Below, piece after piece: positions 4,240-43,766 of a stretch of 64,000 bases of DNA. Each line of letters begins with the position of its first letter. Position 1 is the first letter of the stretch. The translations under genes were made by a program, and so were the position numbers. The notes beneath the pieces were generated by a model, which did no database searches, was not told the origin of the DNA, and saw only the letters and a list, made by a program, of their open reading frames with translations. This DNA is from Saccharibacillus sacchari DSM 19268 (GTDB lineage: Bacteria > Bacillota > Bacilli > Paenibacillales > Paenibacillaceae), in NCBI RefSeq assembly GCF_000585395.1, contig NZ_KK073875.1, positions 2,852,017 to 2,916,016 on the forward strand. The letters are read 5' to 3'.

Positions 4240-4411
4240 GAGAAAGCCTAACGTAGCTGGAAGCGAGAAGACGGAGAGAGAAATTCAGTGAAAGACGCCT
4301 TTGAACTCGGAAAATTCCTTATTTAAATCTAATCCCTTTTCCGAGTGAGACAGCGAATTGAACGAATTTCTCTCGCAGTCTTCTCGCTTCCCGCGCCCAA
4401 GTGGCTTTCTC
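4240..4411. repeat. Long palindromic intergenic repeat, copy 1 (type A)
   Basis: Imperfect inverted repeat downstream of rluF. The outer arms are GAGAAAGCC (4240) and GGCTTTCTC (4411). The middle arms are GGAAGCGAGAAGAC and GTCTTCTCGCTTCC. The inner stem is CTCGGAAAA/TTTTCCGAG, closed by an AT-rich loop. Inside lies the conserved asymmetric pair CGCCTTTGAACT opposite AGTGAGACAGCG. Five other copies occur in this window. No ORF with an RBS is present. Confidence 0.85.
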
Positions 4412-4419
4412 GCCAGCCC

Positions 4420-4447
4420 AGACGAACCGATAAAAAGTTCGTCTTTC
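4420..4447 (+). terminator. Terminator hairpin right of palindromic repeat copy 1
   Basis: Stem AGACGAAC (4420-4427), loop CGATAAAAA, GTTCGTCT (4437-4444), then TT. It shares stem and loop sequence with 4207-4230. It lies just past the rluF stop on the minus strand, so it may act as the rluF terminator even though its T-tract faces the other way. Confidence 0.55.
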
Positions 4448-4459
4448 CGTTTAAATCAT

Positions 4460-5173
4460 TTAGCTGTTGCGCGGCGTATAGTCCAGATCTTTGAACAACC
4501 GATCCAGTTCCTTCGCCGTCAGATCGCGCCATTTGCCGACCGGAAGGCTGTTCAGGTGGATGTTCATGATACGAATACGCTTGAGCGCGCGCACGTTATA
4601 CCCCAGCGCTTCGCACATGCGGCGAATCTGGCGGTTCAAGCCTTGCGTCAGCGTAATTTGGAAAATAAACTTGGACAACTGCTCCACTTCGCACGGCAGC
4701 GTCGTCGTATCCAGAATTTCGACGCCCGCCGCCATCTTTTTCAAAAACTCGGGGGTAATCGGACGGTCGACCGTGACGATGTATTCCTTCTCGTGACGGT
4801 TCTCCGCGCGAAGAATCTCGTTCACGATGTCGCCGTCGTTCGTCAGCAGGATCAGACCTTCGGAGTCTTTGTCCAGCCGTCCGACGTGGAAGATCCGCTG
4901 CGAATGGCCGACGAAATCCACGATATTGCCTTTGACGCTTTTTTCCGTGGTGCTGGTGATGCCGACCGGTTTGTTAAGCACCAGGTAAACATTCTCCTGC
5001 GCGGCCTTTTCCTTGATCTGCTTGCCGCTTACCCGAACGTCGTCGCCCGCCTCGACCTGGCTGCCCAGATCGGCCTTTTCGCCGTTGATCGTGACTTTGC
5101 CTTCCGCAATGATCTTGTCCGCCCCGCGTCGCGACGTGAAGCCGGACTCGGCGATATATTTATTGATTCGCAC
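4460..5173 (-). CDS. rluF: 23S rRNA pseudouridine synthase RluF-like
   Basis: A 237-residue member of the RsuA/RluB/RluE/RluF family, which isomerises uridine in 23S rRNA. An N-terminal S4 RNA-binding domain ([19 protein letters not shown]) is followed by the catalytic domain with the motif [10 protein letters not shown], whose first Asp is the nucleophile, and by [16 protein letters not shown]. The sequence tracks E. coli RluF more closely than RluB along its length (for example [31 protein letters not shown]). It lacks the long basic C-terminal tail of E. coli RluF. The start is the ATG at 5173. It is divergent from the RhuM-family gene, with about 80 bases between them. Confidence 0.88.
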
Positions 5174-5254
5174 TGGTTACGCACACCTTTCTGATTGGGG
5201 AAAATACTCTGTTTACCATATCGCAAAAGGGGCCGGGTGTACAGGTTATGGTGA

Positions 5255-6235
5255 TTGAGAAAGCCCATATACGGTCATACCCGAATCGATGTGAAACTGG
5301 AGAATGGAACCGTTTGGATGACGCAAAAGGCAATCGCGGAGCTGTATCAAACAACTTCGCAGAATATCACTCTACATATACGCAATATTTATCAGGAAAA
5401 TGAACTGGAGGAAGAGTCAACTTGTAAGGATTACTTACAAGTTCAAAAAGAAGGCACGCGGCAGGTGAATCGAAACGTAAAGCATTACAATCTCGAACTG
5501 ATCATCGCGATCGGTTACCGTGTCCGTTCCCATCGCGGCACTCAGTTCAGGCGTTGGGCGACGGAACGGTTGAACGAATATATGGTCAAAGGCTTTACGA
5601 TGGATGACGAACGGCTTAAAGAAATGCGAACGTTCGGTCAAGATTATTTTGATGAATTGCTCAAGCGCATTCGTGATATTCGCGCATCCGAGAAAAGATT
5701 TTATCGGAAGATTACGGATATTTACGCCACGGCGATTGATTACGATCCCAAGTCGGAACCAGCTACCCTGTTTTTTGCCACGGTTCAGAACAAACTCCAT
5801 TTTGCCATACATGGACAGACGGCCGCAGAATTGATAGCGAATCGCGCCGATGCCGGGCAGCAAAATATGGGTTTGACGACATGGAAAGGCGACAAAATTC
5901 GAAAATCCGATATTATCGTCGCCAAAAATTATTTGACCGAAAAAGAGCTGGGATCATTGAATCGAATCGTCACTATGTATCTCGATTATGCGGAAGATCA
6001 GGCAGAGCGCCGCTCACCGATGTATATGAAAGATTGGACTGATAAATTGGATGCCTTTTTGAAATTCAATGATCGGGAGATTTTGCAGAACGCAGGCAAA
6101 ATATCGCAGGAAGTGGCGGAGAAGTTAGCTTCCGAACAATACGATAAATTCAAAAGCCACAGACTAAGCGAAGAAGTGAACGTATCCGGCGATTTCGAAG
6201 AATTCATCAAAGAAAACCGTTTGGATCGCAAATGA
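5255..6235 (+). CDS. RhuM family protein (possibly N-terminally shortened)
   Basis: A 326-residue RhuM-type protein, named after a gene of Salmonella pathogenicity island 3; the biochemical function is unknown. Family motifs: TRIDVKLENGTVWMTQKAIAEL, an N-terminal DNA-binding-like segment, then HYNLELIIAIGYRVRSHRGTQFRRWAT, written here as landmarks at about residues 75-105. The reading frame is closed by a TGA directly before the TTG at 5255, and no good RBS lies upstream. Relatives usually have 10-15 more residues ahead of the TRIDV motif, so the start may be eroded or a GTG (5292) may be used. The coding sequence is AT-richer than its neighbours, which suggests acquisition. Confidence 0.75.
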   Translation: MRKPIYGHTRIDVKLENGTVWMTQKAIAELYQTTSQNITLHIRNIYQENELEEESTCKDYLQVQKEGTRQVNRNVKHYNLELIIAIGYRVRSHRGTQFRRWATERLNEYMVKGFTMDDERLKEMRTFGQDYFDELLKRIRDIRASEKRFYRKITDIYATAIDYDPKSEPATLFFATVQNKLHFAIHGQTAAELIANRADAGQQNMGLTTWKGDKIRKSDIIVAKNYLTEKELGSLNRIVTMYLDYAEDQAERRSPMYMKDWTDKLDAFLKFNDREILQNAGKISQEVAEKLASEQYDKFKSHRLSEEVNVSGDFEEFIKENRLDRK

Positions 6236-6247
6236 AAAAAAGCCGGT

Positions 6248-6850
6248 TCACTTGAACCAGCCTTTCTCCTTGAACCTCGTTATGGCTTCGATCCGGTTGC
6301 CCGCGCCGAGCTTGTCGAGGATGACCGATACATAGTTGCGAACCGTGCCGTTGGTCAGCGACAGCGTGCTTGCGATCTCCTTCGTGTTTTTCCCTTCGGA
6401 GATCAAGTGAAGCACTTCTTTCTCCCGATCGGTCAGCGGATTGGCTTCGGCATAAGGCGCGTCGTCGACCAGTTCGGGCGCGTAGATGCGCCGGCCGGAC
6501 ATGACGCTGCGGATCGCCTCGGCCAGTTCTTCGCTCGGGCTGTCTTTGAGCAGATAGCCGTGCGCGCCTGCTTTGATCGCTCGTTCGAAATAACCGGAGC
6601 GGGCGAATGTCGTCAGAATCAGCACGCGGCAGCCGGAACCTTTTAACTCCTCGGCGGCTTCAAGTCCGGTTTTCTTCGGCATCTCGATATCCATCACGCA
6701 AATATCCGGTTTGTGCAGCAGCACGAGCCGAACCGCTTCTTCACCATCGCCTGCGCGTCCGACCACTTCCATATCGTCCTCCAGATCCAGCAGTGAAGCC
6801 AGTGCGCCAAGGAGCATCCGCTGGTCTTCCGCAATGACGATTCTGATCAT
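6248..6850 (-). CDS. desR: NarL/LuxR-type response regulator DesR
   Basis: A 200-residue regulator: receiver domain with phosphoacceptor Asp54 (ICVMDIEMP), then a LuxR-type helix-turn-helix (NPLTDREKEVLHLISEG). It lies three bases after the desK stop with a strong AAGGAGG inside the end of desK, and the desaturase gene precedes desK. This is the B. subtilis des-desK-desR arrangement, in which phosphorylated DesR activates des when the membrane stiffens in the cold. The Asp is at the same residue number as in B. subtilis DesR. Confidence 0.92.
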   Translation of the reverse strand: MIRIVIAEDQRMLLGALASLLDLEDDMEVVGRAGDGEEAVRLVLLHKPDICVMDIEMPKKTGLEAAEELKGSGCRVLILTTFARSGYFERAIKAGAHGYLLKDSPSEELAEAIRSVMSGRRIYAPELVDDAPYAEANPLTDREKEVLHLISEGKNTKEIASTLSLTNGTVRNYVSVILDKLGAGNRIEAITRFKEKGWFK

Positions 6851-6853
6851 TCG

Positions 6854-8029
6854 TTATCCCTCCTTATTTGCTCCTTCGGTTGACGGAGCGTTACTATCCG
6901 GTTCCCGCTGCGCCAACACGTTCGGAATACGCAGCGTCAGCATCGTACCGCGTCCTTCCGGGGGAGCCGAAGAGATGTCCAGGCTTCCGTTGACGAACTC
7001 CAACCGTTCCCGCATGCCCCGAAGCCCGCTGCCCCGAACATTACCGCCGTCTTTTAGTCCATTGCCGTTGTCGGCGACCCGAACGACCAACTCGGCGGGA
7101 AGCGGCTCGATCTCGATCAGGCAGGAGGTCGCTCCGCTATGCTTCACGATATTCGTGACCGCTTCTTTTAGGCACATGCTGACCACGTTCTCGTTGAGCA
7201 GCGACGTGCGCGTCTCTGCCGGATCGCCGATCAACGTGAACTCGATCTCCGCTGCTTTCAAAATCTGCCGCAGCCGATGAATCTCGTCCTCCACATGCGT
7301 GCCGCGCATCTGGGTGACCAGCTCGCGCAGTTCTTTTAATACAACGCGCGCAGTTTGCTGAACGTCACGAATTTCTTCTTCCGCCCTGTTGGGGTCTTTC
7401 GTCACCAGCTTTGCCGCCAGGTCGCTTTTGAGTCCGATCAGCGCCAGCTTTTGTCCCAGCGTATCGTGCAGGTCGCGCGCGATGCGTTGGCGTTCTTCCA
7501 TCACGACCAGTTCGGAGATGCGCTTGTTCGCGTCTTCGAGTTGGCCTTCGAGCCGCTCGCTGCGATTGCGGTTATACGTGGTGACCGGCAGCAAAATGAC
7601 GGCGATGATGGTCAGCGCGACAAACGGCCATTGCGTGATCAGCAGCGGATTCAGATGGATGTAGCCGACGTAAGCCGAAGCGAGCACCGCGGCGAGCTGG
7701 ATCGAATACAAAGTGAAAAATCCGCTTTTGCTGCGAATATTTCCGACGAAATACGCCAGGAATACCGCAAAGTAAATATAGCCGAACATCAAAGTCATCG
7801 AGACCGAGAATAACATCTGCATGCTCGTCCAAAAATATCGCAGCCGTCCTTTAAAAGCGAAAGCGAGCAAATAACATACGAAAAATCCGATAACCATAAA
7901 AATGCCGGTAGCGGCTTGAATCGCGGAAGACGAACGGAAAATGAAGTAAAACGGCAGGATATAAAAGACGACCCATACATAAGGATTAAGTCCGGTACTG
8001 CGTTGAAAAATCTGATACCACTTCTGCAT
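6854..8029 (-). CDS. desK: Membrane-fluidity sensor histidine kinase DesK
   Basis: A 391-residue HPK7-type kinase. The N-terminal 150 residues form several membrane helices starting at TGLNPYVWVVFYILPFYFI, very like B. subtilis DesK. Then come a short coiled coil, the HisKA_3 box ERQRIARDLHDTLGQKLALI with phospho-His188 (the same number as in B. subtilis), and an HATPase domain (NGNGLKDGG, GLRGMRERL). I chose the ATG at 8029 because it has GGAGGGC upstream and gives the canonical N-terminus; the open frame reaches back to 8161. DesK acts as a phosphatase or kinase on DesR according to membrane order. Confidence 0.92.
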   Translation of the reverse strand: MQKWYQIFQRSTGLNPYVWVVFYILPFYFIFRSSSAIQAATGIFMVIGFFVCYLLAFAFKGRLRYFWTSMQMLFSVSMTLMFGYIYFAVFLAYFVGNIRSKSGFFTLYSIQLAAVLASAYVGYIHLNPLLITQWPFVALTIIAVILLPVTTYNRNRSERLEGQLEDANKRISELVVMEERQRIARDLHDTLGQKLALIGLKSDLAAKLVTKDPNRAEEEIRDVQQTARVVLKELRELVTQMRGTHVEDEIHRLRQILKAAEIEFTLIGDPAETRTSLLNENVVSMCLKEAVTNIVKHSGATSCLIEIEPLPAELVVRVADNGNGLKDGGNVRGSGLRGMRERLEFVNGSLDISSAPPEGRGTMLTLRIPNVLAQREPDSNAPSTEGANKEG

Positions 8030-8164
8030 GACGGTCTGCCCTCCACGGATTTTTGCCGGAATCGACACAAGCCTTCCCGGTGCGTGCGCCGCCTGATTTT
8101 TTGAGACCATTATAACCCGCGCCCTCCTTTTTCCCAAATCGTATCTGTATTCAGCCTGCACGCC

Positions 8165-8196
8165 AAAAACCCCGGAATACGGGAAACCGGGGTTTT
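8165..8196 (-). terminator. Terminator between des and desK
   Basis: Stem AAAACCCCGG on the plus strand paired with CCGGGGTTTT (8187-8196), followed on the minus strand by a T-run. It lies between the desaturase stop (8210) and the desK start (8029), so desKR may be transcribed by partial read-through or from an internal promoter. Confidence 0.75.
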
Positions 8197-8209
8197 CGAA
8201 AACAGCATA

Positions 8210-9295
8210 TCAGTCTTTCGGCAGTGCAGGCGCTTTCGGCTTCAGCTCGCGCGCGACGGCTTGCACCGCATTGCCGGGCAGGCCGCTGCGTACTTTTCGA
8301 CCATAGCCGGTAAATGTCTTCGTTTCTTCGTCCCACAGACGGAACTTCAACGATTGCAGGCTGGTGCGCAGCGTGATCGTTGTCGCTTTTTGCAAAGGAA
8401 CGGAAGAGTCATGCGCTTTTGCCAGATTATAATTTGGTACTTTCGGACTCAGATGGTGCACGTGGTGGAAGCCGATATTGCCCGTGATCCATTGCAGCGG
8501 CTTCGGCAGTTTGTAGTACGAGCTGCCTTCGACGGCCGCGTTCACGTAGCTCCACTCTTCCTCATGCTCAAAGTACGAGTCTTCGAATTGATGCTGCACG
8601 TAGAACAACCAGATGCCGAACAGTCCCGAGAAGAAGAAGACCGGAACCTGCACCAGCAGGAACGCCTGCCAGCCGATCGCCCAGATCAGCGCCGCGTACA
8701 GCAGCACGATCAGCACGGTGGTCAGGTGGGTGTTGATGCGTTCTTGGCGCTTGGCGCCTTTGCGGTTGAAGCGGGACTCGATCAGGAACACGAAGATCGG
8801 GCCGAGACCGAACATGACGAGCGGGTTGCGGTAAAAGCGGTATGCCAATCGTGTCCAGAACGAAGCTTCGGCATACTCTTCAACCGTCAGCAGCCACATA
8901 TCGCCTTCGCCGCGTTTGTCGAGGTTGCTGCTTGTCGCATGATGGCGGGTGTGGCTGTATTTCCATTTGCGGTACGGCATCATGGTGATGACTCCGGTGA
9001 TCGTACCGACAATATCGTTAGCTTTTTTGTTTTTGAAAAACGATCCGTGCGTGCAGTCGTGGAAAATGATGAACGTTCGGATCACGAAGCCCGAGGCCAC
9101 GAGCAGAAGCGGCAGCGCGAGCCAGTAGGAGACGGACAAACTCAGGTAACCGCCGACCCACAGCAGAATCAGCGGAACCAGCGTGTTGACCATTTGAAGA
9201 ATGCTGGCCTTGGAATCGGTTTTTTCGTAAGGCTTCATATGCTTTTTCAATTCCGCAATCGGGTTGGCGGATGTCGTATTCGTGGACGGGTTCAT
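8210..9295 (-). CDS. des: Membrane acyl-lipid fatty acid desaturase Des
   Basis: A 361-residue integral membrane di-iron desaturase that introduces a double bond into phospholipid acyl chains. The three histidine boxes are visible: HDCTH (about residue 87), HTRHH (about 123) and HHVHH (about 287). Hydrophobic pairs flank them. The chosen start is the ATG at 9295, nine bases from an AGGGG; the frame extends to 9331 without a better RBS. The first gene of des-desK-desR. Its upstream region has a good -10 but a poor -35, and TGACA/TGTCA repeats where an activator would bind. Confidence 0.92.
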   Translation of the reverse strand: MNPSTNTTSANPIAELKKHMKPYEKTDSKASILQMVNTLVPLILLWVGGYLSLSVSYWLALPLLLVASGFVIRTFIIFHDCTHGSFFKNKKANDIVGTITGVITMMPYRKWKYSHTRHHATSSNLDKRGEGDMWLLTVEEYAEASFWTRLAYRFYRNPLVMFGLGPIFVFLIESRFNRKGAKRQERINTHLTTVLIVLLYAALIWAIGWQAFLLVQVPVFFFSGLFGIWLFYVQHQFEDSYFEHEEEWSYVNAAVEGSSYYKLPKPLQWITGNIGFHHVHHLSPKVPNYNLAKAHDSSVPLQKATTITLRTSLQSLKFRLWDEETKTFTGYGRKVRSGLPGNAVQAVARELKPKAPALPKD

Positions 9296-9343
9296 CAATG
9301 TAATCCCCTTTCGCGGACGCCGCTCGGGCATCTCAATAATCTT

Positions 9344-9409: not shown

Positions 9410-9477
9410 ACAGCAGATTGTCTTATTTAAATTTATGAATATACAAAATGCGAACACAGGAGTAGAATAGGGACGGT

Positions 9478-9513: not shown

Positions 9514-9553
9514 TAGAAACTGAATGATAAAAAGAATAGGGGCTGGAAAAGAA

Positions 9554-11432: not shown

Positions 11433-12223
11433 AAGCTGAGAAAAAGACAGGGCAAAATAGCATAAATGGCAAACCCAAAGGCAGTCTAGGTGCGATGCTG
11501 CTTCGTTTACTATCGGTATTCGTCGTTCTGCATATCCTATGGGGACTGATTGCTGCACTATTGAAGCGCGACATGCTGCCTTCTCCGCTGGTCGTCTATC
11601 GAGCGTTATTCAAGTTGGACGGCGGAGAAATGCTGCTGAATATCGGCACCAGCATGGGCCGGGTCTTGGCCGGAATCGCGCTGGCTTTAATCATCGGCTT
11701 GCTGTTGGGCCTGCTGATGGGACGTTCCCCGCGTTGGAACAAACTTCTCGATCCGGTCGTCTACCTGACCTATCCTATCCCGAAGATCGCCTTGCTTCCG
11801 GTTGCCATGCTGTTTTTGGGGCTCGGAGAAGCCTCGAAGATTGTCATGATTGCCCTGATTCTGGTTTTCCAGGTCATTATCTCCGTCCGCGACGGTGTCA
11901 AAGCCATTCCGGCCAACACGTATGATGTCCTGACCAGCCTGGGCGCGGGGCGCATGGCGAAGTTCACCCAAATCACTTTGCCCGGCGCATTATCTTCCAT
12001 ATTGAGTACCATCCGAATCTCCCTCGGCACCGCCTTCTCGGTCTTGTTCTTCACCGAAATCTACGGTACCGAACACGGCATGGGCTATTTCATCATGGAC
12101 GCTTGGCTTAGGCTCGACTATCCCGGCATGTACGCCGGAATCCTCCTGTTCAGCGGCGTGGGCTTTCTGCTCTTCGTGTTGGTCGACCTGTTTGAACACC
12201 GCTTCATGAAGTGGCGGGCGTAG
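11429..12223 (+). CDS. ABC transporter permease, SsuC/TauC-like
   Basis: A 264-residue permease with a basic N-terminus and about six membrane helices. The cytoplasmic EAA-type coupling loop is at about residues 165-190 (TYDVLTSLGAGRMAKFTQITLPGAL). The motif PKIALLPVAMLFLGLGEASKI is typical of the nitrate/sulfonate/taurine permease family. It is the last gene of the three-gene operon. Palindromic repeat copy 2 begins exactly at its stop codon, so that element would lie in the mRNA 3' end. Confidence 0.9.
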   Translation: MKAEKKTGQNSINGKPKGSLGAMLLRLLSVFVVLHILWGLIAALLKRDMLPSPLVVYRALFKLDGGEMLLNIGTSMGRVLAGIALALIIGLLLGLLMGRSPRWNKLLDPVVYLTYPIPKIALLPVAMLFLGLGEASKIVMIALILVFQVIISVRDGVKAIPANTYDVLTSLGAGRMAKFTQITLPGALSSILSTIRISLGTAFSVLFFTEIYGTEHGMGYFIMDAWLRLDYPGMYAGILLFSGVGFLLFVLVDLFEHRFMKWRA

Positions 12224-12396
12224 AGAAAGTCACTTTAGCGGTGGGAAGCGAGAAGACTGCGAGAAAAATTCGTTCAATTCGCTGTCTCACTTGGAAAATT
12301 GGATTTAAATTTGAGTGGAAGTTTTCCAAGTTCAAAGGCGTCTTGAACTGAATTTCTCTCTCCGTCTTCTCGCTTCCAGCTACATTGAGCTTTCTC
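12223..12396. repeat. Long palindromic intergenic repeat, copy 2 (type A, reverse orientation)
   Basis: Outer arms GAGAAAG (12223) and CTTTCTC (12396); middle arms GGGAAGCGAGAAGAC and GTCTTCTCGCTTCC. The inner stem is TTGGAAAAT/AAGTTTTCCAAG rather than the CTCGG/CCGAG of other copies, so both sides changed together. The conserved loop pair appears reversed: CGCTGTCTCACTT on the left, AAGTTCAAAGGCG on the right. It starts at the stop codon of the ABC permease. Confidence 0.85.
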
Positions 12397-12421: not shown

Positions 12422-12450
12422 TTGTCGGCTTCCTAACAAGAAGCCGACAA
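12422..12450 (+). terminator. Hairpin after the ABC operon
   Basis: Perfect 11-bp stem TTGTCGGCTTC / GAAGCCGACAA with a 7-base loop. The T-tract is absent, so as a terminator it would be weak. It follows repeat copy 2. Confidence 0.5.
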
Positions 12451-12496: not shown

Positions 12497-12526
12497 AAGC
12501 GTCCCACTTTTAGCAAGGACGCTTTT
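12497..12526 (+). terminator. Rho-independent terminator
   Basis: Stem AAGCGTCC (12497-12504) and GGACGCTT (12517-12524), 12-base loop, followed by TTT. It is placed between repeat copies 2 and 3 and reads in the direction of the ABC operon. Confidence 0.6.
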
Positions 12527-12529: not shown

Positions 12530-12706
12530 CTCCTATTTGAAGGCGAAGCCATAGCGGAGGGAGGAATTCAGTGTAGGAGCGTTAGCGGTCGCCTTTGTAT
12601 TTGGGAAGCTTCCTTTATAAAATCCAATTCAGCTTCCCAAATGCAACACGCGACCGGAACGAATTCCTCCCGCAGCGCCCCGCGAAGCCAATCAACGAAT
12701 AGGAAC
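12530..12706. repeat. Long palindromic intergenic repeat, copy 3 (type B, divergent core)
   Basis: Ends resemble copies 4 and 6: TCCTATT on the left, ACGAATAGGAA on the right, with GGAGGGAGGAATTCAG and GAATTCCTCCCGCAGCG as middle arms. The inner stem is unrelated in sequence (TTTGGGAAGC / GCTTCCCAAA) but pairs perfectly. The shared internal loop of the other five copies is missing here. Together with copy 2 it fills the convergent intergenic region 12224-12775. Confidence 0.75.
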
Positions 12707-17740: not shown

Positions 17741-20700
17741 TTGTTCAAGATGAAAAAAGAAGCGGGTTTGCACAAGGGGTTCAAACTCGCGATGGCGGCA
17801 ATGCTGGTCCTCGGAAGTTTGACGGGGCTCGGCACGCAAGCAACGGAAGCGGCACCGCCGCAGCCTGTTCCGGGCGGGGTCGGAACAGGGCTGATTTCGT
17901 GGGTCGACGTCGGAAGAAGCACGGATAAGCAGGAAGGCGAGAAAATCGCGGCACTGACGGATTTGGCGCCGAACGTTACGCGAACTTGGACGTCCAACTC
18001 TAAAGGAACCGCCGCCGCTTATAAAGCTGCTTCTTTAAATTTCAATGCCGCTTACACCGGTTATGATTATTTCAGAACACTTGTATCGGGAGAGTTTGCG
18101 GCAAGCGGCGTTGATGAACGGGAAGTATTTTCGGTTCAATCGACGCCTTCCGCTTCTACCGGTTATCCATGGGAGCTGGGAGGCGGGTATACGGCTGCAA
18201 GCAGATATCTTTCTTCGGGCAGCATTACTTCTTACTTCGGTTCCAAAACGCATCGCACGATTACGAATTCTTCAAGCGAGCTTGATATGACCCAAGTAGA
18301 TTTGACGAAAGCGAACATATTGAACGTATCCAGCATTCCCGACGAGTGGACATTGAATGTAAGCGGGGGACAGGCGCTGCGTTCGACAACAAATGAAGTG
18401 GACTTTTCGAGTCCGGTTACCTCGCCGAGCACATACTACTTTGGCGCGGCGCATAATTCCGTGAATCGAGGGCCGGTATCCGAGATGATCGTATTTGATC
18501 ATAAGCTTTCGGATACGGAGCGTCAGCAGGTCAATAGTTACTTGGCTTTTAAATACGGCATCACGTTGAAAAACAACAGTGAAGCCAATGTCGATTATCT
18601 CGCCAGCGACTTGGGTCTAATCTGGGATGCAAGCGATAACCTGGGCTATGGCTACCGGATTACCGGAATCGGCAGAGACGACGCTAGCGGTTTGGAACAG
18701 AAGCAATCCAAAGCCCAAGATGCCCAAGGGATCGTCACTTTGGCGCTGGGGACGGCGATTGCGGGTTCCAATGAAGCCAATGTCGCGGCATTCGCTGCCG
18801 ACCAATCATTTTACAGCTTCAGCGACAACGGGGGCAGCACCGGTTACACCGTTGATCTCAGCAGCGGAAGCGGCTCTTCCTTGCTTGAGTTGAAGCATAT
18901 GCCGCGCATCCATAAGGTAGAAGCAACCGGCGATTGGACCAATGAACCGATCACGTTAAAAGCGGACGGCGCGGTTCAGCAGTCGGGAAGACAGTATTAT
19001 TTGATTTCTTCCGCGGCGGCGAATATGAGCAACGCGCAGTTGCATCCGTTGAACGCGAACGGAGAGGTTACACTCAGTAGCGGCAGCCTGCCGGACGGAA
19101 CGTTCTTCACCTTTGCCTACGTGGATACGGCTAATCTGGTTCCGGGCGATCCGGGAGGCGTCGCTTCGCCGGTACTGTGGATGAGATCCGACCGGGGCAT
19201 TCAGCAAAACAGCGGCGGCGCAGTAGCGGAGTGGAAAGATCAGAGCCCGTCCGGCAACGACGCTTCTCAGCCGACGTCGGCTGCGCAGCCGACGTACTGG
19301 GACGACGCGTCTCATAATATCAATTTCAATCCGGTATTGGACTTTGCCAACGATTATCTGACTTTGGACGTGAATAAGCTTCCGCTCGGCAAAAAAGCCC
19401 GAACGATCGTTGCTGTCGCGAAGTCGGACACCGTGGGAAACTCGATCGGTTATGTGATTGGATGGGGAACGGCTAACGGTTCGAATACTGCTGTCGGTAT
19501 GCTTAGAAACGAAAGCAGAGTCGGATTGACGCCCATGAACTCTTCGACGGACCGCTCCCAAACGATGTACTCGGTTCTGAATCTGATGAACGACGACTTT
19601 CCTCATGAACAATTTTTGACATGGACGGGCGGAGAGAACGGAGACGCCGCGAACCAAGCCAGATTGTACAGCAAAATGAAAAGAGTCGAAGATGATCAGC
19701 CCAATGGACTCGGACAAGACGTTCCGAAAAAATGGGATACCGGAACGCTTGACGGAGCCGTGATCGGCAAAGTCATCCCGGCTTCTGTTTCCAACTACTA
19801 TTGGGACGGAACCATTCTGGACATCATCGTCTATGACCGCGTGCTCACCGATCTTGAACGCCAACAAGTCAGCACTTATCTGGCGATCAAGCACGGATAC
19901 ACGATCGCTCCGGGCAATCCGGACGATACGTCGTACCTTGATTCGCAAGGCAACAAAATTTGGAACTCATTAGCCGCCGTCAACGGCGCATACACGAATC
20001 GGATTACAAGCATCGGCAGAGACGATGCCAGCGATTTGAAGCAAAAGCAATCCAAAGCCCAAGAAAGCGGCGCCCTTGTGACGCTGGCGTTGGGCAATGA
20101 AATCAAAGCAACCAACTCGGCTAATTTGAATGAGTTTGCTACCGATCTTGCCTTCTTTACATTTGGCGACAACGGAGCAAGCGCGGATTACACGCAAAGC
20201 ATCCAACAAGCTCAGGACGTGTCGCTCAAACGAATGGAACGCCTCCATAAAGTCGACACGAGCGGCTGGACCAATCAAGACGTAACGCTTCAGGCGGATA
20301 TCGCGCAGCGGGACGCTTCGCAGCCGGAGCAATATTATCTGGTGGTCAGCAGTCAGGAAGATCTCGGCAATGCGAGCTTCTTCCCGCTGGATGAAAACGG
20401 CCGGATCACGTTAAGCGGCAATCAGCTGTCCGAAGGGAACTTCTTCACCTTCGCGCATGCGGACAAAACAGCGCTGGGCACAAAAGTCTCTTCGGTCGAC
20501 AACCACCTGGGAACGCTGAAACAAGAGGATTATACGCCTGAAAGTTGGACGGCTCTGCAAACCAAATTGACGGCGGCAAAAAATCAATTGGATAATCCTC
20601 AAGCTTCGCAGGCGCAGATTGATCAGGCGCTCAAGGAACTATCCGAGACTTATGAAGGCCTGGAGCCGCTGGGAGCTACCTTCGATAATGCCGTGTTAGA

Positions 20701-34103: not shown

Positions 34104-34325
34104 TGTGTGCAAAGCGTCAACAATTTCACTAGTTTTACGACTTTTCTTTTGAGATGCTGACTTTTGATCAACATTTTGCTTCATTTTGGCTCAAATTCGA
34201 GTCAAAATCCGAAAAATGTTGATATTCCGTCAGCATTTTCAAAATCCAGTGCCGAAACACGCTAAAATGTGCGCAAAAGGTCAACATTGCAACGCATAAC
34301 GCATAACGCATAACGCATAACGCAT
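34104..34325. repeat. Palindrome, flanking direct repeat and five tandem heptamers
   Basis: Part of the gene-free stretch 33985-34607. TGTGNGCAAA followed by GTCAACA occurs at 34104-34122 and 34268-34286. Between them is a long imperfect inverted repeat, with ATGCTGAC and GATCAACATTTT on one side and AAAATGTTGAT and GTCAGCAT on the other (34154-34236). Next come five exact tandem copies of AACGCAT (34291-34325). No coding sequence is seen. The heptamer may vary by slippage. Confidence 0.6.
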
Positions 34326-34342
34326 CCTACAGCTGTGCACAT

Positions 34343-34382
34343 AAAAATAGCGTTCCGGAATCTTTCCCGGAACGCTATTTTT
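34343..34382. terminator. Bidirectional terminator
   Basis: Perfect 16-bp stem AAAAATAGCGTTCCGG with an 8-base loop and its complement ending in TTTTT. It separates the convergent REC-BTAD and DsbA-like genes. Confidence 0.9.
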
Positions 34383-34428: not shown

Positions 34429-34598
34429 AGAATTCCGATTCGTGACGCGCGCCAAACGGAGGGAGAAATTCAGCGAGAGACGCCTTTGAACTCGGAAAAT
34501 TTCCACTAAAATTTCATTCCAGTTTTCCGAGTGAGACAGCGTCTCGACCGAATTTCTCCCGCAGCGCCCCAGCGCGGCCTTCCACGAATAGGAATTCC
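34429..34598. repeat. Long palindromic intergenic repeat, copy 4 (type B)
   Basis: Right end ACGAATAGGAATTCC; middle arms GGAGGGAGAAATTCAG and GAATTTCTCCCGCAGCG; inner stem CTCGGAAAA/TTTTCCGAG. The conserved loop pair CGCCTTTGAACT and AGTGAGACAGCG is intact. It ends ten bases from the stop of the DsbA-like gene, in a convergent intergenic region. Confidence 0.85.
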
Positions 34599-36465: not shown

Positions 36466-37209
36466 ATGAAAATCGATGTAACCAACATAGCGAAAAATCT
36501 CAATACGCCGCTGACGGCGCCCGCTTACCCTTTACCGCCTTATCAATTCGTTAACCGGGAATATCTGAACATCGTTTACCGCACGGATATCGAAGCGCTG
36601 CGGGCAGCGGTGCCGGAACCTCTCGAGATCGTCGACCCTTTGGTCCGATTCGAAGTGATGTGGATGCCCGACGTTTCTGGTTTGGGCGCTTATACCGAAG
36701 CCGGGCAGGTCATTCCCGTCCGATTCGACGGCGAGGACGGCGATTACGTGCATTCGATGTACGTGGACAATTTTCCGGCGATCGCAAGCGGTCGGGAGCT
36801 TACGGCTTATCCCAAAAAGTTGGGCGCGCCCAAGCTTTACGTGGACTCGGACACTTTGGTGGGCACGCTGGACTACGGTTCGCTACGCATAGCCAATGCC
36901 ACCATGGGCTACAAGCATTTCGAGATGGACAAGGAAGCAGCCAAAAGCGAAATTTGCCGACCTAATTTTATGGTGAAGATCGCGACGGATTACCAAGGAA
37001 ATTTACGGATTTGCGATTTGGTGCGAACGCAAATCACGGATATTGAGGTCAAAGGGGCTTGGAGCGGTCCGGCACGGCTTCAATTGTTCGAACATGCCCT
37101 GGCGCCTCTTGCGGATCTGCCCGTATTGGAAGTCGTATCGGCATCCCATATCCTGACGGATTTAACCTTGAATGCCGCGCAGCCCGTGTACAACTACTTA
37201 ATGGCTTGA
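36466..37209 (+). CDS. adc: Acetoacetate decarboxylase family protein
   Basis: A 247-residue protein of the acetoacetate decarboxylase superfamily. Family landmarks: YRTDIEALRAAVPEPLE, ASGRELTAYPKKLGAPKL, with the Schiff-base lysine expected in the YPKKLG motif (about residue 122), and the final HILTDLTL. True Adc makes acetone from acetoacetate, but many superfamily members have other activities such as aldolase-dehydratase. AAGGAGG lies upstream of the ATG. The next gene is a ketopantoate-reductase-like enzyme, and both are divergent from a LysR regulator, suggesting a small catabolic unit. Confidence 0.85.
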   Translation: MKIDVTNIAKNLNTPLTAPAYPLPPYQFVNREYLNIVYRTDIEALRAAVPEPLEIVDPLVRFEVMWMPDVSGLGAYTEAGQVIPVRFDGEDGDYVHSMYVDNFPAIASGRELTAYPKKLGAPKLYVDSDTLVGTLDYGSLRIANATMGYKHFEMDKEAAKSEICRPNFMVKIATDYQGNLRICDLVRTQITDIEVKGAWSGPARLQLFEHALAPLADLPVLEVVSASHILTDLTLNAAQPVYNYLMA

Positions 37210-37299
37210 CCAAATTAAAAGTAAGGTTACGCCAACCTGAAACGCACCTAAAGCGTGTGCGTTTCAGGTTAACGTAAGCCTCCGATCAAGGTTGGTCAA
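37206..37299. repeat. Second palindrome family, copy 1
   Basis: Outer arms TTGACCAA (37206) and TTGGTCAA (37299); middle AAGGTTACG and CGTAAGCCT; inner CTGAAACGCAC and GTGCGTTTCAG around a 9-base loop. It overlaps the stop codon of adc and lies before the next gene. A related element lies at 57993-58094. Confidence 0.75.
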
Positions 37300-38539: not shown

Positions 38540-39160
38540 TTACGCGCGCGGTTTGAAGATGCCGAAGGCTTTGCCGATCGGCAGGAACTCGCGTCCGAAG
38601 TGGACGTTCAGCACATTGGCTCCGCAGCCGTACAGCGATACGATGCCGATTGCCAGTTCAGCATAAGCCGCCAAGGTGTGGAAGAATTCCGGCGCGCCGA
38701 ATGCGTCAAACGTCAGGCCGAGGAACAAGACGTCGATCAGGCAGAAGATGATGAACAAGACTTTGTTTGTCTCCATCGCGCCGATCGTCATGAACAAGGT
38801 GAAGACCAGGTATCCGGCAAAAGCAAAACCAAGCTGTTTGCCGTCGACGGCGCCGGCAAGCTCGGGACCGAACGTGCCCATTTTCATCAACCAGTTGGTC
38901 GCCATGGCGAACCAGAAGAAGGCGTAGGCGGCGAAAGCGGTCATGCCGAACGTGTTATTGTGCTTCGCATCCTGGATGCTGGCGAAGAGCTGAGCGAAAG
39001 CGCCCAGGAAAACGGCCCAGGAAGCGGCGTAGCTGAGGCCTTCCGTCAATCCGAGCTTCTGCGACGAAGCAACGAGCGTAACGATGGCCAGACCGAACAA
39101 GCCGATTGCGCCGGGATCGGCGGTAACGACTTTGACGGTAGAAGGTGACGGGTGATTCAT
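38540..39160 (-). CDS. satP: Acetate/succinate transporter, GPR1/FUN34/YaaH (SatP) family
   Basis: A 206-residue protein with six predicted helices. The GPR1/FUN34/YaaH family pattern is clear: ADPGAIGLFGLAIVTLVAS, SWAVFLGAFAQLFASI and the NTFGMTAFAAYAFFW segment. These proteins form proton-coupled or channel-like carriers for acetate and other small monocarboxylates. GGAGG lies 13 bases from the ATG, which is long but the only candidate. It is monocistronic. The 263 bases upstream (39161-39423) hold a GAACGG-type palindrome near 39208 and the terminator at 39371; I saw no gene there. Confidence 0.88.
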   Translation of the reverse strand: MNHPSPSTVKVVTADPGAIGLFGLAIVTLVASSQKLGLTEGLSYAASWAVFLGAFAQLFASIQDAKHNNTFGMTAFAAYAFFWFAMATNWLMKMGTFGPELAGAVDGKQLGFAFAGYLVFTLFMTIGAMETNKVLFIIFCLIDVLFLGLTFDAFGAPEFFHTLAAYAELAIGIVSLYGCGANVLNVHFGREFLPIGKAFGIFKPRA

Positions 39161-39370
39161 AGCTTTAATTATTCCTCCAACAATGCAAGATAGAAAGCAA
39201 GTGATTTCCGAACGGTTCCGTTCTTTGTGGAACTCAACTGACCTATTGTACTCGAAAAGAAAGACGAAATGAATATGGAATTTCGTGTTTTAGCGAAAAT
39301 TTTCCGAAAAAATATGCAGGATCGAGACTGGATACGCTTACGAAAAGGGATATGTATGAAAAAACATAAA

Positions 39371-39408
39371 AAAAGCCCCGAAGGCAGCCTATGGCTGTCT
39401 GGGACTTT
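39371..39408 (-). terminator. Terminator of the aldo/keto reductase gene
   Basis: On the minus strand, AAAGTCCCAGACAGCC pairs imperfectly with GGCTGCCTTCGGGGCTTT and is followed by a T-run. Confidence 0.75.
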
Positions 39409-39423
39409 AGAAGATATCTACAC

Positions 39424-40371
39424 TTAGTCGCGGAACAGGAAATCGATCTGTTCGATTTGCTCGGGCGTCAGTTTGACGTCGAGCGTTTTGAGGTTGGCCG
39501 CGACCTGCTTGTCGTTTTTGGCGCCCGGGATGACGGAATCGATCGCGTCTTGGGTCAGGTACCAAGCGAGGACGACGTTAGAGATGTCGGCGCCTTGAGC
39601 GTTGGCGATTTCGCGCAGGCGGTTTACTTTTTCCACGTTGCGTTTGAAGTTGTCGCCTTGGAACATCGGGTTTTTGAGCTTGCTCTCGTCGAGCTTGTCT
39701 TCCACGCCGTATTTGCCGGTCAGGAGACCGGAAGCGAGCGGGAAGTAAGGGACGAACGAGATATTGTTTGCTTTGGCGTAAGGCAGAAGCTCGGCTTCGG
39801 CGCCGCGTTTGAACAGGTTGTATTCGCCCTGGAACACGTCGACGTGACCGTCCTTGTTGGCTTCGCGCAGTTGCTCGATCGAGAAGTTGGAGACGCCGAT
39901 CGAGCGGATTTTGCCTTCCTGCTTCAGCTTCGCGAGCTCGCCTACCGCTTCGTCTTTCGGCGTATGTTCATCCGGGAAATGGATATAGTACAAATCGATG
40001 TAGTCGGTACCGAGACGCTTCAAGCTGGCCTCGACCGATTCTCTCAGAAACGCCGGGGAGTTATCAAGCTCGACGCCGCCGTCGACGATTTTATGCGCGC
40101 CTTTGGTGGCGATGACGATCTCGTCGCGATGCCCGTAAGCTTTCAATACTTCGCCGATCAGCTCTTCCGAACGTCCGGGTCCGTAGATGAACGCCGTATC
40201 CAGGAAGTTAATGCCGCTTTCCAAAGCCGAGCGAACCGACGCTTTGCCGGCTTCTTCATCCAGGTTAGGGAAAAGGTTATGCCCGCCGACGGCATTGGTG
40301 CCGAGGCCGATCGGGTTCACTTTCAAACCGCTTTTACCCAAAGTTACTTTCTCGTTCACTGCTTTCGTCAT
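39424..40371 (-). CDS. Aldo/keto reductase
   Basis: A 315-residue NADPH-dependent reductase with a TIM-barrel fold. Catalytic Asp and Tyr lie in [20 protein letters not shown], Lys in VIATKGAHK, His in [11 protein letters not shown]. The C-terminal cofactor motif [15 protein letters not shown] is present. Physiological substrate unknown; the group acts on aldehydes such as methylglyoxal. The ATG at 40371 lies eight bases after GAGGG; the open frame continues to 40404. Stand-alone gene. Confidence 0.9.
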
Positions 40372-40564
40372 TGCAAAACCCTCGCTTTCCGTAAATGAAT
40401 GCAAAAATAAATTCGAACCGCATCTATATATTTTACCCGCAAAAAGAACCGACGTAACTCTCTAAGCTTAAAATCCGATTAAAAAAGTCGGGAAATGAAA
40501 AAACGGTGAACGGAAGCTTCCCGTCCACCGTATGTTTGAATCCTATCATCCGTTTATCGCGGGA

Positions 40565-41170
40565 TCAGTCGACTTTCGCCCCGTAAGAACGCATAAACAA
40601 AACAGCTTGCTCCCGATCCATGCGTACGTTTTTCACGTCCAGTGCCTTGAAATCGACTCCGTCCAGTACGGCATCCCGCAGATCCGCGCCTTGCAGCTTG
40701 GCATTCCCGAGCATGCAGCGCGTTAGGTCCGCCCCGCGCAGATCGGCTTTTTGCAGACTGGTTTCGGACAAGTCGGCTTCGAAAAAGCGCGCCCCGCGCA
40801 GATCCTGCCGGTCCAAGCGCGCATGGCGCAGATTCGTATACGACCAATCGCCCCGTACCACCGTGAATCCGTCCAGCTTGGAGCCTGCAAAGTCCGACCC
40901 GGTCATTTTGCAATTATCGAACTTGGCCGCAAATAGATTCGCTTCAGTAAACTTGCAGTTCTCGAACGCCGATTCGATATGAATCGAGCCGTTCATCGCG
41001 GCACCGCGGAAATCGCATTCGGTGAAGCGGCAGCCTCGCGTCAAGATTTCCTCCAGCGAACCGTGCGTAAAGCGGCAGCGGACAAACGTGCAGTTGGTCA
41101 GCTCGCCGTCCCGCAGTTCCTGCGCGCCGAAATCGACGTCCTCGTAGCTGCGGTTTTCATATTCGAACAT
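40565..41170 (-). CDS. Pentapeptide repeat protein (Qnr-like fold)
   Basis: A 201-residue protein made of A(D/N)LXX repeats (ADLSETSLQKADLRGADLTR is typical). It is predicted to form a right-handed quadrilateral beta-helix, with a short non-repeat C-terminus (RMDREQAVLFMRSYGAKVD). Qnr and MfpA use this fold to mimic DNA and bind gyrase; many other members have no known role, so resistance cannot be assumed. GGGAGG precedes the start. It lies 18 bases after pepT and is probably co-transcribed with it. Confidence 0.87.
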   Translation of the reverse strand: MFEYENRSYEDVDFGAQELRDGELTNCTFVRCRFTHGSLEEILTRGCRFTECDFRGAAMNGSIHIESAFENCKFTEANLFAAKFDNCKMTGSDFAGSKLDGFTVVRGDWSYTNLRHARLDRQDLRGARFFEADLSETSLQKADLRGADLTRCMLGNAKLQGADLRDAVLDGVDFKALDVKNVRMDREQAVLFMRSYGAKVD

Positions 41171-41188
41171 GGTTAAGTCGCCTCCCGT

Positions 41189-42424
41189 TTAGGCCTGACG
41201 CTCGAACGCCTGCACCACTTCCAAAATGACTTCCGTTGCTTTGACCATGTTGTCGGCGGACACGTATTCGTAACGGCCGTGATAGTTCTCGCCGCCCGTG
41301 AAAATATTCGGTGTCGGCAGTCCCATGTAAGACAGCTGCGAACCGTCGGTGCCGCCGCGGATCGGACGGATGTCCGGCGTGATATTCAGCTTTTTCATCG
41401 CGTCGCTCACCAGATCCACGATCTCGATCACCGGCTCGATTTTTTCGCGCATATTGTAGTATTGATCGCGCACTTCAAGCAGCACGTTCTCGTCGCCGTA
41501 CGTCTGACGGAATTCGCCCGCGATGGTTTCCATCAGCTTTTTGCGATTCTCGAAGCTGTCACGGTCGAAATCGCGGATGATGTACGACAGCGTCGTCTGA
41601 TCCGTCCCGCCGTTGATATCGAGCAGATGGAAAAAGCCTTCGTAGCCTTCCGTGAATTCCGGCGACTCCTGCTCCGGCAGACGACGGTGGAACTCCATCG
41701 CGATCTTGGCCGCGTTGATCATTTTGCCTTTGGCGGTGCCGGGGTGAACGCTGACGCCTTTGATCGTGACTTTGGCGGCAGCGGCATTGAAGCTTTCGTA
41801 TTCCAGCTCGCCGAGCGGCCCGCCGTCCATCGTGTACGCGTATTTCGCGCCGAACGCTTGCACGTCGAAACGCTGCGGTCCGCGTCCGATCTCTTCATCC
41901 GGCGTAAACGCGACGCGCAGTTTGCCGTGCTTCAGCTCCGGATGCGCGATCAGATGGTTCAGCGCCGTCATGATTTCCGCCATGCCGGCTTTATCGTCGG
42001 CGCCGAGCAGCGTCGTGCCGTCGGTCGTCATCAGCGTATGGCCCACGTAATGCGACAGTTCGGGGAACTCGCGCGGGGACAAGACGATGCCGAGTTCTTT
42101 GTTCAGCACGATATCTCCGCCGTCGTAGTTGTCCACGATCTGCGGATTGACGTTCGCGCCGCTCAGCTCGGTTGCCGTGTCCAAATGGGCGAGGAAGCCG
42201 ATCACCGGAACGTTATCTTTATCCGTATTGGCCTCGAGCGAAGCCATGACATAGCCGTTCTCGTCGAGCGTGATTTCCGTAAGGCCCATCTCCGTCAGCT
42301 CGCGCACGAGCTGCTCGGCCAGCTTCATTTGTCCGGGCGTGGAAGGGCAGGTCTCGCTGTCTTCATTGGACTGGGTATCGAAACGGGCATAGCGGTCGAG
42401 ACGTTCGATCAGCTCTTTTTTCAC
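41189..42424 (-). CDS. pepT: Peptidase T (tripeptide aminopeptidase)
   Basis: A 411-residue M20B zinc aminopeptidase that removes the N-terminal residue from tripeptides. Metal ligands and catalytic residues are in [27 protein letters not shown] and [30 protein letters not shown] is close to the C-terminus. The GTG at 42424 is eight bases after AAGGA and gives the usual length; the frame continues 85 codons upstream without homology. First gene of a likely pair with the pentapeptide protein. Confidence 0.93.
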
Positions 42425-42745
42425 GGGTAAATTCCTTCTTTCCGTTGGGCCGATTCCGGCGCAATTAGGCACGAACCCCCTTCGCCTTACAAGTGAGGGA
42501 AGGGGGTTGCGATGCCAGCGGGCAGTCCGGATCGGCGTTCGATTTGGCGCTCTTGTTCGAAAGGACAGAGGCGCGCATACCCTTATTTTAGCATGAAAAA
42601 GGGTTTCGAAAAAAGCCTGCGGCTTACGGTTCGATCGGTTCAAAGCTGGCGCATTTCGCGCGAACATGCGAAAATACACGTTGCATCTTATCAGGCCGGA
42701 TCAGGAAAAAGAACTCCTGCGATTCGGCATTCGGAGGTTGGACAT

Positions 42746-43294
42746 ATGAACATATCGCTGGTTGTTTTTCAAGGGCCGAGCGCTTCGGGCAAAACGACGC
42801 TTCAAGCCGTATTGGGACTTCCTCGCATCGTGACCTGGACATCGAGAGCGCCGCGCGAAGGCGAAATCGACGGCGTCGACTACCACTTTACGAAGCGCGA
42901 GACGCTGGAGCGGATGATGGATGAAGGCAAAATGCTGGAAACCAGCGAGTACCGCGGCCATCTATACGGCACCTCATTGGCTTCGATCGAAGACGCCGCA
43001 GGCGGTGCCGGACTTCGCTCCATCGTGCTCGACCCGAGCGGTGCCCGCGTAGCCAAGGCCCTGCTCGGCGACCGCGCCTTGATGCTCGGCGTCTCCGCAG
43101 CACGCTCCGAATGCGAAGCCCGCCTGCTGGCACGCGGCTCCGACACGCAGCAGATCACGGCGCGGCTCGCCGGCTACGACGAAGAGATCGCCGCCCTCGA
43201 AGGATGCGATCTCATCATCCGAAGCGGCGAAGGCGCTTTGGAACGCGCAGGCGAGATCGTCCGCTCCCTGCGCCCCATGTTGGGCATCAAATAG
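42746..43294 (+). CDS. Guanylate-kinase-like P-loop protein
   Basis: A 182-residue nucleotide-binding protein: P-loop FQGPSASGKTTLQ at residues 8-20, then TWTSRAPREGEIDGVDYHF and ETSEYRGHLYGTS, which match the GMP-binding region of guanylate kinase. It is a little shorter than canonical Gmk, and the helical end differs, so a diverged kinase of another small substrate is possible. The ATG at 42746 has CGGAGGTTGGACAT directly upstream; the upstream open frame (from 42512) is not supported. Confidence 0.78.
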   Translation: MNISLVVFQGPSASGKTTLQAVLGLPRIVTWTSRAPREGEIDGVDYHFTKRETLERMMDEGKMLETSEYRGHLYGTSLASIEDAAGGAGLRSIVLDPSGARVAKALLGDRALMLGVSAARSECEARLLARGSDTQQITARLAGYDEEIAALEGCDLIIRSGEGALERAGEIVRSLRPMLGIK

Positions 43295-43297
43295 AAA

Positions 43298-43326
43298 GAG
43301 CCGCTTCCAAGTTACGGAAGCGGCTC
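43298..43326 (-). terminator. Terminator hairpin left of palindromic repeat copy 5
   Basis: GAGCCGCTTCC, loop AAGTTAC, GGAAGCGGCTC, with AAA on the left. A nearly identical hairpin lies at 43519 on the other side of repeat copy 5. Confidence 0.75.
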
Positions 43327-43333
43327 AGGCTGC

Positions 43334-43510
43334 GCTCGAAAGTTACTTCGGCGGGGGAAGCGAGAAGACTCCGAGAAAAATTCGTTCAAAACGCTGTCTC
43401 ACTCTAAAAGCTGCTGGAAGTGAATTCAAGGAGAAGCTTTTGGAGTTCAAAGGCGTTTTGAACTGAATTTTCTCTCCGTCTTCTCGCTTCCAGCTACGTT
43501 GAACTCTCTC
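43334..43510. repeat. Long palindromic intergenic repeat, copy 5 (type A, reverse orientation)
   Basis: Middle arms GGGAAGCGAGAAGACT and GTCTTCTCGCTTCC. Loop pair reversed: CGCTGTCTCACT on the left, AGTTCAAAGGCG on the right. The inner stem is changed to CTAAAAGCT / GAAGCTTTTGGAG, again with both sides altered. It is flanked by the duplicated GAGCCGCTTCC terminator hairpins. Confidence 0.85.
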
Positions 43511-43518
43511 AATACGCC

Positions 43519-43550
43519 GAGCCGCTTCCAACTCCGGAAGCGGCTCTTTC
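43519..43550 (+). terminator. Terminator hairpin right of palindromic repeat copy 5
   Basis: GAGCCGCTTCC, loop AACTCC, GGAAGCGGCTC, then TTTC and a T-rich tail. It is identical to the 43298 hairpin except for the loop, with the T-tract on the outer side. Confidence 0.8.
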
Positions 43551-43590
43551 TATTTTCTTGGTTTTAAAATTACTTTCTACCGACACCTTC

Positions 43591-43766
43591 AAATTCCTGC
43601 TCGTCAGGGAAAGCGAGAGCGGAGGGAGAAGTTCAGTGAAAGACGCCTTTGAACTCGGAAAACTCCCTTATTTAAATCCAATCCAGTTTTCCGAGTGAGA
43701 CAGCGTCTTGAACGAACTTCTCCCGCAGCGCCTCCCAGCTTTCCGCCCCCAAACGAATAGGAATTT
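43591..43766. repeat. Long palindromic intergenic repeat, copy 6 (type B)
   Basis: Ends AAATTCCT (43591) and AATAGGAATTT (43766); middle arms GGAGGGAGAAGTTCAG and GAACTTCTCCCGCAGCG (note G/C change on both sides relative to copy 4); inner stem CTCGGAAAA / TTTTCCGAG; conserved loop pair intact. It ends four bases before the efeB stop codon. With copy 5 it fills the convergent gap 43295-43770. Confidence 0.87.

Follow-up and report, generated by a model that had tools for sequence, protein, structure and literature searches.

A MITE-like element with a conserved folded core, probably moved by an IS1182-type transposase into terminator hairpins of Saccharibacillus

The REP/BIME and ERIC repeats of enterobacteria are dispersed extragenic palindromes, many of them near gene ends, and group IIC introns are targeted next to terminators. 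Here we describe a dispersed palindromic element of Saccharibacillus sacchari DSM 19268, noticed in a stretch of 64,000 nucleotides (contig NZ_KK073875.1, positions 2,852,017 to 2,916,016; the window). With a length of 110–190 bp, it is too short for any transposase gene. It resembles the enterobacterial repeats in being extragenic, palindromic, dispersed and often near gene ends, whereas no Y1 transposase was found in this genome at E ≤ 1e-6 and the whole target hairpin is duplicated here.

The insertion sequence (IS) IS1272 replaces its target stem-loops with no duplication, and a duplication of the whole stem-loop has been sketched as a possible pathway (Fig. 13, b); its targets are inverted repeats of varying length, and four IS1272 copies lie directly downstream of genes (PMC5678879). 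The system described here is similar in that the transposase belongs to the same family (IS1272/IS1182; NF033551) and the targets are also palindromic stem-loops. In contrast to IS1272, however, elements as well as three IS copies are flanked by the hairpin on either side, the stem-loop being duplicated whole, and neither a folded core nor a non-autonomous partner is described in the sections of the IS1272 report cited here (PMC5678879). Bacterial miniature inverted-repeat transposable elements (MITEs), as portrayed in the cited part of a recent account, share with the present element the short, non-coding sequence, IS-like ends, target duplication, intergenic location and stem-loop fold, whereas the inside of the present element is a family-wide folded module with freely covarying stems and no recognisable piece of an IS (PMC10969869). 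The BOX, RUP and SPRITE repeats of Streptococcus pneumoniae are likewise dispersed and have predicted RNA folds; BOX is modular and has IS-like ends, and one passage deals with an enrichment near the 3' ends of convergently transcribed genes (PMC3049150). Compared by description only, these repeats differ from ours in module order and host, and duplication of a target terminator hairpin is unmentioned in the cited parts of that source (PMC3049150).

We propose, with a probability of about 0.7, that the element is a non-autonomous, MITE-like element with a conserved folded core and that an IS1182-type transposase moves it, duplicating the target stem-loop in the process. In this genus, the element seems to jump into transcription-ending hairpins, the hairpin being copied to both sides. 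The family, which spreads through Paenibacillus-like bacteria, is apparently undescribed; no description of it was found among the papers listed by a literature search.

Empty sites, duplicated hairpins and the IS partner

This genome contains at least 150 copies: 150 of 2638 candidates were scored and all matched, the worst at E = 1.1e-12. Two copies of the window, copies 3 and 5 (103.5 and 88.8 bits), fall outside these 150, and the true copy number is therefore higher. The statistics on 140 and 136 copies given below refer to samples of the copies in this genome. Genomes are referred to by handles, where G000 is this genome, G015 is S. endophyticus, G012 is S. kuerlensis, and G051 belongs to another family of the same order.

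At the site of copy 1, S. endophyticus has one terminator hairpin, AGACGAACCGATAAAAGTTCGTCT, whereas in this genome the element lies between two copies of that hairpin. The copies at genome positions 3439754 and 850416 show the same empty-site pattern, the right hairpin of the latter being decayed. Among 36 copies with both flanks aligned in a relative's locus, these three empty sites, all in S. endophyticus, were found, and most of the others had a gap of approximately the size of the element. A direct repeat between the left and right flanks with a score of at least 13 was observed for 21 of 136 copies, versus none of 271 mismatched flank pairs; by eye, the duplicated sequence is a palindrome in 17 of these 21 (16–47 bases aligned) and not in the other 4. 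For the divergent copies, the same score was reached by 7 of 65 (six in G051 and one in G022) versus 0 of 129, and the tested copies of loci L362–L379 all had flank-repeat scores below 11. Among the 26 copies whose ends can be recognised, an A-run often lies outside the left hairpin and a T-run outside the right one.

A candidate for the mobilizing partner is a 1569-bp IS, both open reading frames (ORFs) of which match IS1182-family transposase models. Its ends, TCAGAATGTCGAGAAAC..GTTTCTCGACAGCCTGA, resemble the element ends TCAACGTGTCGAGAAAGT / ACTTTCTCGACAGCCTGA, a resemblance seen in those 26 of 136 copies whose ends can be recognised; the loose end pattern AACGTGTCGAGAAAGT..ACTTTCTCGACAGCCTGA (up to 5 and 6 mismatches, respectively) fits 26 of 136 copies as a pattern count without a control. 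A search of this genome with the end word yielded 17 places, versus 2 for the reversed-word control. Two of the places outside the 150 scored copies correspond to the end of the 1569-bp IS, and four others mark further elements, also outside the 150. The IS is bracketed by exact hairpin copies, which measure 19 bp at L311 and 18 bp at L315 in this genome and 29 bp at L340 in G003, and elements of G051 with ends like TTAGGCTGTCGAGAAACCCC are likewise situated between hairpin copies. The first-pass annotation had offered a non-autonomous mobile element as one option among several, and this option is supported by the empty sites, the hairpin duplication and the IS with similar ends.

The IS1182-type transposase of L311 and L315 is split into two ORFs of 190 and 257 aa in different frames, and the IS1182 matches in G002, G003, G016 and G018 have their break close to the same point, suggesting that they share a frameshift arrangement. 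In S. kuerlensis, a decayed relative of the IS, 953 bp long and with unequal hairpins, lies at the terminator of copy 1.

On the proposed reading, the IS1182-type transposase would act on the element in trans and would recognise its target as a stem-loop (cruciform). On each of the two strands, the element would be joined at the opposite foot of the stem-loop, with the result that repair would duplicate the whole hairpin, whatever its length. The insertion site would thereby retain two hairpins, one with an A-run and, on the other side, one with a T-run, so that termination could go on both ways; terminators would thus be safe sites for insertion, which would explain the intergenic location. 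The plus strand presumably folds, as RNA or as single-stranded DNA, and the core may have travelled within IS1182-type elements on at least two occasions, in Saccharibacillus and in G051.

The conserved core

Six copies had been annotated in the window at 4240–4411, 12223–12396, 12530–12706, 34429–34598, 43334–43510 and 43591–43766, and all six are present at these places. Apart from matches on the opposite strand at the same places, the covariance model found no full copies in the window beyond these six at E ≤ 1e-6. The copies and their neighbouring hairpins (the latter without an assigned strand) are as follows.

4207–4230: left duplicate of the terminator hairpin at copy 1, AGACGAACCGATAAAGGTTCGTCT, preceded by an A-run; single in S. 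endophyticus
4231–4419, plus strand: copy 1, type A, core 4272–4378; ends TCAACATGTCGAGAAAGCC at 4230–4248 and GGCTTTCTCGCCAGCCCA at 4403–4420; site empty in S. endophyticus
4420–4444: right duplicate of the terminator hairpin at copy 1, AGACGAACCGATAAAAAGTTCGTCT, followed by TT
12223–12396, minus strand: copy 2, type A, core 12257–12364; ortholog in S. endophyticus
12424–12448: terminator-like hairpin 5' of copy 2, identified by eye
12497–12526: terminator-like hairpin 5' of copy 3, identified by eye
12530–12706, plus strand: copy 3, type B, core 12555–12675; extra mini-hairpin at 12576–12593
34347–34378: terminator-like hairpin 5' of copy 4, with a T-run after it, identified by eye
34429–34598, plus strand: copy 4, type A, core 34457–34564; ortholog in S. 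endophyticus
43298–43326: first copy of the terminator hairpin at copy 5, GAGCCGCTTCC..GGAAGCGGCTC
43327–43518, minus strand: copy 5, type A, core 43369–43478; flanked by two hairpins with the same stem
43519–43546: second copy of the terminator hairpin at copy 5, GAGCCGCTTCC..GGAAGCGGCTC, with the same stem and another loop, followed by a T-rich run
43591–43766, plus strand: copy 6, type A, core 43620–43728

When brought into one orientation (copies 2 and 5 reversed), all six copies fold into one long rod, in which the conserved part spans about 110 bases (CGGAGRGAGAAATTC ... GAATTTCTCYCGCAG) and the outer arms and ends are far more variable. The loop words CGCCTTTGAACT and AGTGAGACAGCG (12-base) are exact in five copies, on the plus strand in copies 1, 4 and 6 and as the reverse complement in copies 2 and 5. 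These words had been described as an unpaired internal loop. Its conservation is confirmed, whereas the loop need not be unpaired throughout, as the plus strand can form tandem G.A/A.G, U.G and U-A pairs; in type B, the same columns hold Watson-Crick pairs where type A has tandem G.A and U.G (in Saccharibacillus). The compensating stem changes CTCGG/CCGAG and CTTGG/CCAAG, and GAAGTTC/GAACTTC in copy 6 versus GAAATTC/GAATTTC in copy 4, are real; the third example, CTCCAAAAG/CTTTTAGAG of copy 5, is present with one C.A mismatch on the plus strand of the element (G.U on the other). Copy 3, to which a wholly different core had been ascribed, instead represents a second type, with the same CGCCTTTG, an extra mini-hairpin (GGAGCGTTAGCGGTCGCC, 12576–12593) and GCAACACGCGACC opposite. 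Extra hairpin modules are seen in some copies, located in either arm (5' or 3') or in the loop.

Among 49 non-redundant copies, 24 of 36 pairs were changed on both sides. The cells changed on both sides numbered 169, versus a mean of 46.8 after shuffling, and none of 500 shuffles gave as many as 169; the covariation score was 0.292, versus at most 0.110 for slid partners. The signal was also seen in the divergent copies of alignment A7, which has 70 rows, of which 67 are distinct and 59 come from outside the genus (locus L372, short and at a contig end, was left out), and is fitted to the covariance model: 29 of 34 pairs were changed on both sides among the 67 distinct copies, with 727 cells versus 230 shuffled and a score of 0.811 versus 0.220 shuffled and at most 0.139 slid. 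In the A7 consensus, AGCGNNAGCGNUCGCCUUUG stands ahead of the upper stem and CAACAGCGA behind it, and the stems change freely. These results strongly support the covariation and the conserved loop put forward for the six copies, and extend both far beyond this genome. The core is a family-wide folded module, composed of the mini-hairpin, the CUUUG/CAACAG loop and covarying stems, that in other genera also occurs without the ends described above.

No Rfam family matched the window at the gathering thresholds. In Rfam scans by E-value of 5, 10 and 15 loci (L372, L377 and L379 being left out of the last), the sole match on the element was IRES_VEGF_A on L151, with 22.6 bits versus a gathering threshold of 160 and E = 0.3; the other matches (FMN and c-di-AMP riboswitches, a T-box below gathering and weak small RNAs) lie elsewhere in the loci.

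Several differences were seen at the window copies and their surroundings. The ortholog of copy 3 in S. endophyticus contains, in its 3' arm, a 37-nt hairpin module that this genome lacks, and the place of copy 5 is occupied there by a different, shorter core. G002 and G003 lack both copy 5 and copy 6 and have an unaligned gap of 20 and 83 bp, respectively, at this place. Upstream of copy 4, at 34290–34326, a 7-bp tandem repeat (AACGCAT) has more units than in S. endophyticus. The window also contains a 65-bp direct repeat (86%) at 18656–18720 and 20000–20064 within one ORF of 1732 aa, as well as a 75-nt inverted repeat pair, 79% complementary, at 37207–37281 and 58016–58090, which is not in the six copies.

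Gene context, folding strand and rival explanations

Genes were called by home-made codon scores for the window and the 140-copy list, and as the longest ORF for the divergent set. Copies had been placed only at gene 3' ends, five of the six in convergent gaps. The five convergent gaps are confirmed, copy 1 lying in a tandem gap after the gene at 4460–5173. The location is indeed intergenic and is not limited to 3' ends: the gaps that hold the 140 strong copies are convergent for 52, tandem for 78 and divergent for 6, with 3 further copies at a locus edge and 1 without a flank. None of the 140 copies lies inside a called gene, and a predominance of copies inside genes or upstream regions, by which the first-pass annotation would have been refuted, was not seen in this genome. 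In the divergent set, 23 of 70 rows are in sense in tandem gaps, many of them nearer the start of the next gene, and 10 of 70 overlap a long ORF.

Termination or 3'-end processing as the main reason for the element is unsupported. The A- and T-runs seen by eye belong to hairpins beside the element; the T-runs in the flanks viewed lie mostly beyond the flanking hairpins (by eye, uncounted). In addition, many copies run antisense to the gene next to them, namely 47 of the 52 copies in convergent gaps and 31 of the 78 in tandem gaps. A strong hairpin was found near the 5' side in 67 of 136 copies, near the 3' side in 27 and on both sides in 18, versus 26 of 400 windows placed at random and 21 of 116 placed after genes. 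The 3' side is nearer a gene in 107 copies, versus 29 for the 5' side, and the corresponding counts are 28 versus 11 in the 39 tandem rows of A7. All nine pairs less than 600 bp apart in the 140-copy list are arranged minus then plus, with the 5' sides facing each other (for example, at genome positions 850169/850416 and 2381310/2381526), and the two pairs of the window are arranged likewise.

In clearly Watson-Crick columns, the plus strand showed G-U:A-C ratios of 43:18 in this genome, 52:11 in the named loci of the genus and 24:5 in the divergent copies, as well as 35:6 in A7. The model also matches the opposite strand of the element with a lower score, and overlapping and identical rows were dropped before these counts (A3 from 150 to 134, A4 from 150 to 115 and A5 from 40 to 34 rows; A3 was drawn from 100 of the 131 sequence sources of this genome). 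By orientation, the ratios were 18:3 for antisense copies, 28:1 for sense copies and 17:3 for the rest, with one G-U-rich column added and three duplicate rows (L152/L379) included. Since antisense and sense copies have the same bias, the bias does not follow the neighbouring gene. The folding energy of the plus strand was more stable in 49 of 67 divergent copies. These results indicate that the plus strand is likely the folding strand.

The conserved fold is open to other interpretations. The selected structure may be DNA, with the plus strand folding as single-stranded DNA or as a cruciform in transposition and with no RNA role. The palindromic nature of the whole elements, the rarity of G-U/G-T pairs (about 1–2% of stem cells) alongside common double changes, and the same strand bias in antisense copies are all consistent with this, whereas the stems are still paired in copies of other genera that have no detected duplication; we consider it a serious possibility, though one that falls short of even odds. 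It is rather unlikely that the element is kept as a host RNA, that is, as a 3'-end processing, termination or regulatory structure, with its spread incidental. Strong covariation and loop conservation across the family, the bias of one strand towards G-U over A-C, and, in other genera, copies that precede genes in sense, such as one 86 nt before an annotated gene in Paenibacillus cellulosilyticus, would fit such a role, whereas copies occur in both orientations to genes, the A- and T-runs are part of the adjacent hairpins, and presence differs between species, with counts from 1 to at least 65 per genome within the genus (model R1).

The compensating changes might also stem from arm-templated correction of quasi-palindromes, with no selection on folding. 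Under such correction, however, the conserved mismatched loop would be lost, and divergent copies would show no preference for G-U over A-C on one strand; we regard it as improbable, even though the elements are near-perfect palindromes with few one-sided intermediates and G-U and A-C are nearly equal by distinct types in this genome. The terminator association and the mostly one-sided hairpin resemble the targeting of group IIC introns near terminators, and the mover could accordingly be a reverse-transcriptase retroelement or else a REP/RAYT-type (Y1) system. Y1_Tnp was not found in G000, G003, G010, G014 or G015 at E ≤ 1e-6 (present in 4 of 35 genomes overall), nor RVT_1 in G000, G003, G010 or G014 at the same threshold, G015 having one match of 53 bits. 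This alternative is largely refuted unless a diverged enzyme exists, and we regard it as very improbable.

Several observations weigh against movement by an IS1182-type transposase with duplication of the stem-loop, the explanation we favour. Transposition itself was not observed. Empty sites were seen for 3 of the 36 comparable copies, in a comparison of loci mostly chosen for holding elements; a clear duplication is lacking in 115 of 136 copies, and recognisable ends in 110. Of the five IS copies with both ends found, two, in G002 and G012 (L339 and L350), do not lie between equal hairpins. The number of IS1182 matches does not follow the copy number: matches at E ≤ 1e-20 were absent from G015, G014 and G051, all of which have many copies, and conversely, G018 and G019 have 10 and 12 IS1182 matches but 0 and 1 element copies, respectively. 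The polarity of the copies (a hairpin on the 5' side only in 49 versus the 3' side only in 9, and the 3' side nearer a gene in 107 of 136) also counts against this explanation, because insertion into a symmetric palindrome does not predict polarity. As to the folding strand, G-U and A-C number 17 and 14 by distinct column-and-pair types in this genome, and the folding energy favours the minus strand in 94 of the 136 own copies, with the genus sample even (57 versus 56); the flanking control hairpins likewise lean to the minus strand (56 of 94).

Distribution and meaning

A pattern scan of named genomes yielded at least 86 stretches, and all 80 of those listed are from Saccharibacillus. Relatives in other genera and families of the order have quite different stems that are yet still paired. 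With model R2 at E ≤ 1e-7 and up to 9 matches scored per genome, 38 of 398 genomes of the class were positive: 5 of the genus, 32 more of Paenibacillaceae and 1 of another family of the order. The remaining 360 genomes gave no R2 match under the stricter filters of that search. Relatives were found in two records of P. cellulosilyticus, at 72.9% and 71.2% identity; five stretches of this species (249,901 bases) contained 4 matches, all in two stretches chosen for holding hits. Two of its copies frame the gap between the annotated genes for glyS and pyruvate, water dikinase regulatory protein, with their 3' sides toward the genes. A search of plasmids with copy 6 and of phages with one same-family copy gave no match, and searches of viral contigs with three patterns gave 0, 1 and 0 stretches, the one being L380.

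In L369, L376, L377 and L379 (about 1160–1970; L379 reversed), from four genomes of the same family, elements lie by eye upstream of a gene starting MIKATVYVTIKQS, which resembles purS, and each locus has a second element nearby on the opposite strand. In G031 (L147, flanks of 1501–1618), the element adjoins tandem copies of its own outer arm sequence.

We tentatively raise the further idea, which we consider a long shot, that the core represents a new RNA class of Paenibacillaceae with a role in mobility, in which the folded plus-strand RNA, with its mini-hairpin and CUUUG/CAACAG loop, would help IS1182-type transposases to find stem-loops or recruit them in trans. If true, this would be an RNA-carrying element spreading through terminators.

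The movement proposed here links a family-wide folded element without an Rfam family to a transposition that copies the entire target hairpin, a pairing that was not found in the literature searched. The hairpin duplication provides sequence evidence for the pathway drawn as a possibility for IS1272. The element shows how a repeat can exploit terminators as safe sites, and it offers a tractable test of whether the inside of a MITE is a working RNA.

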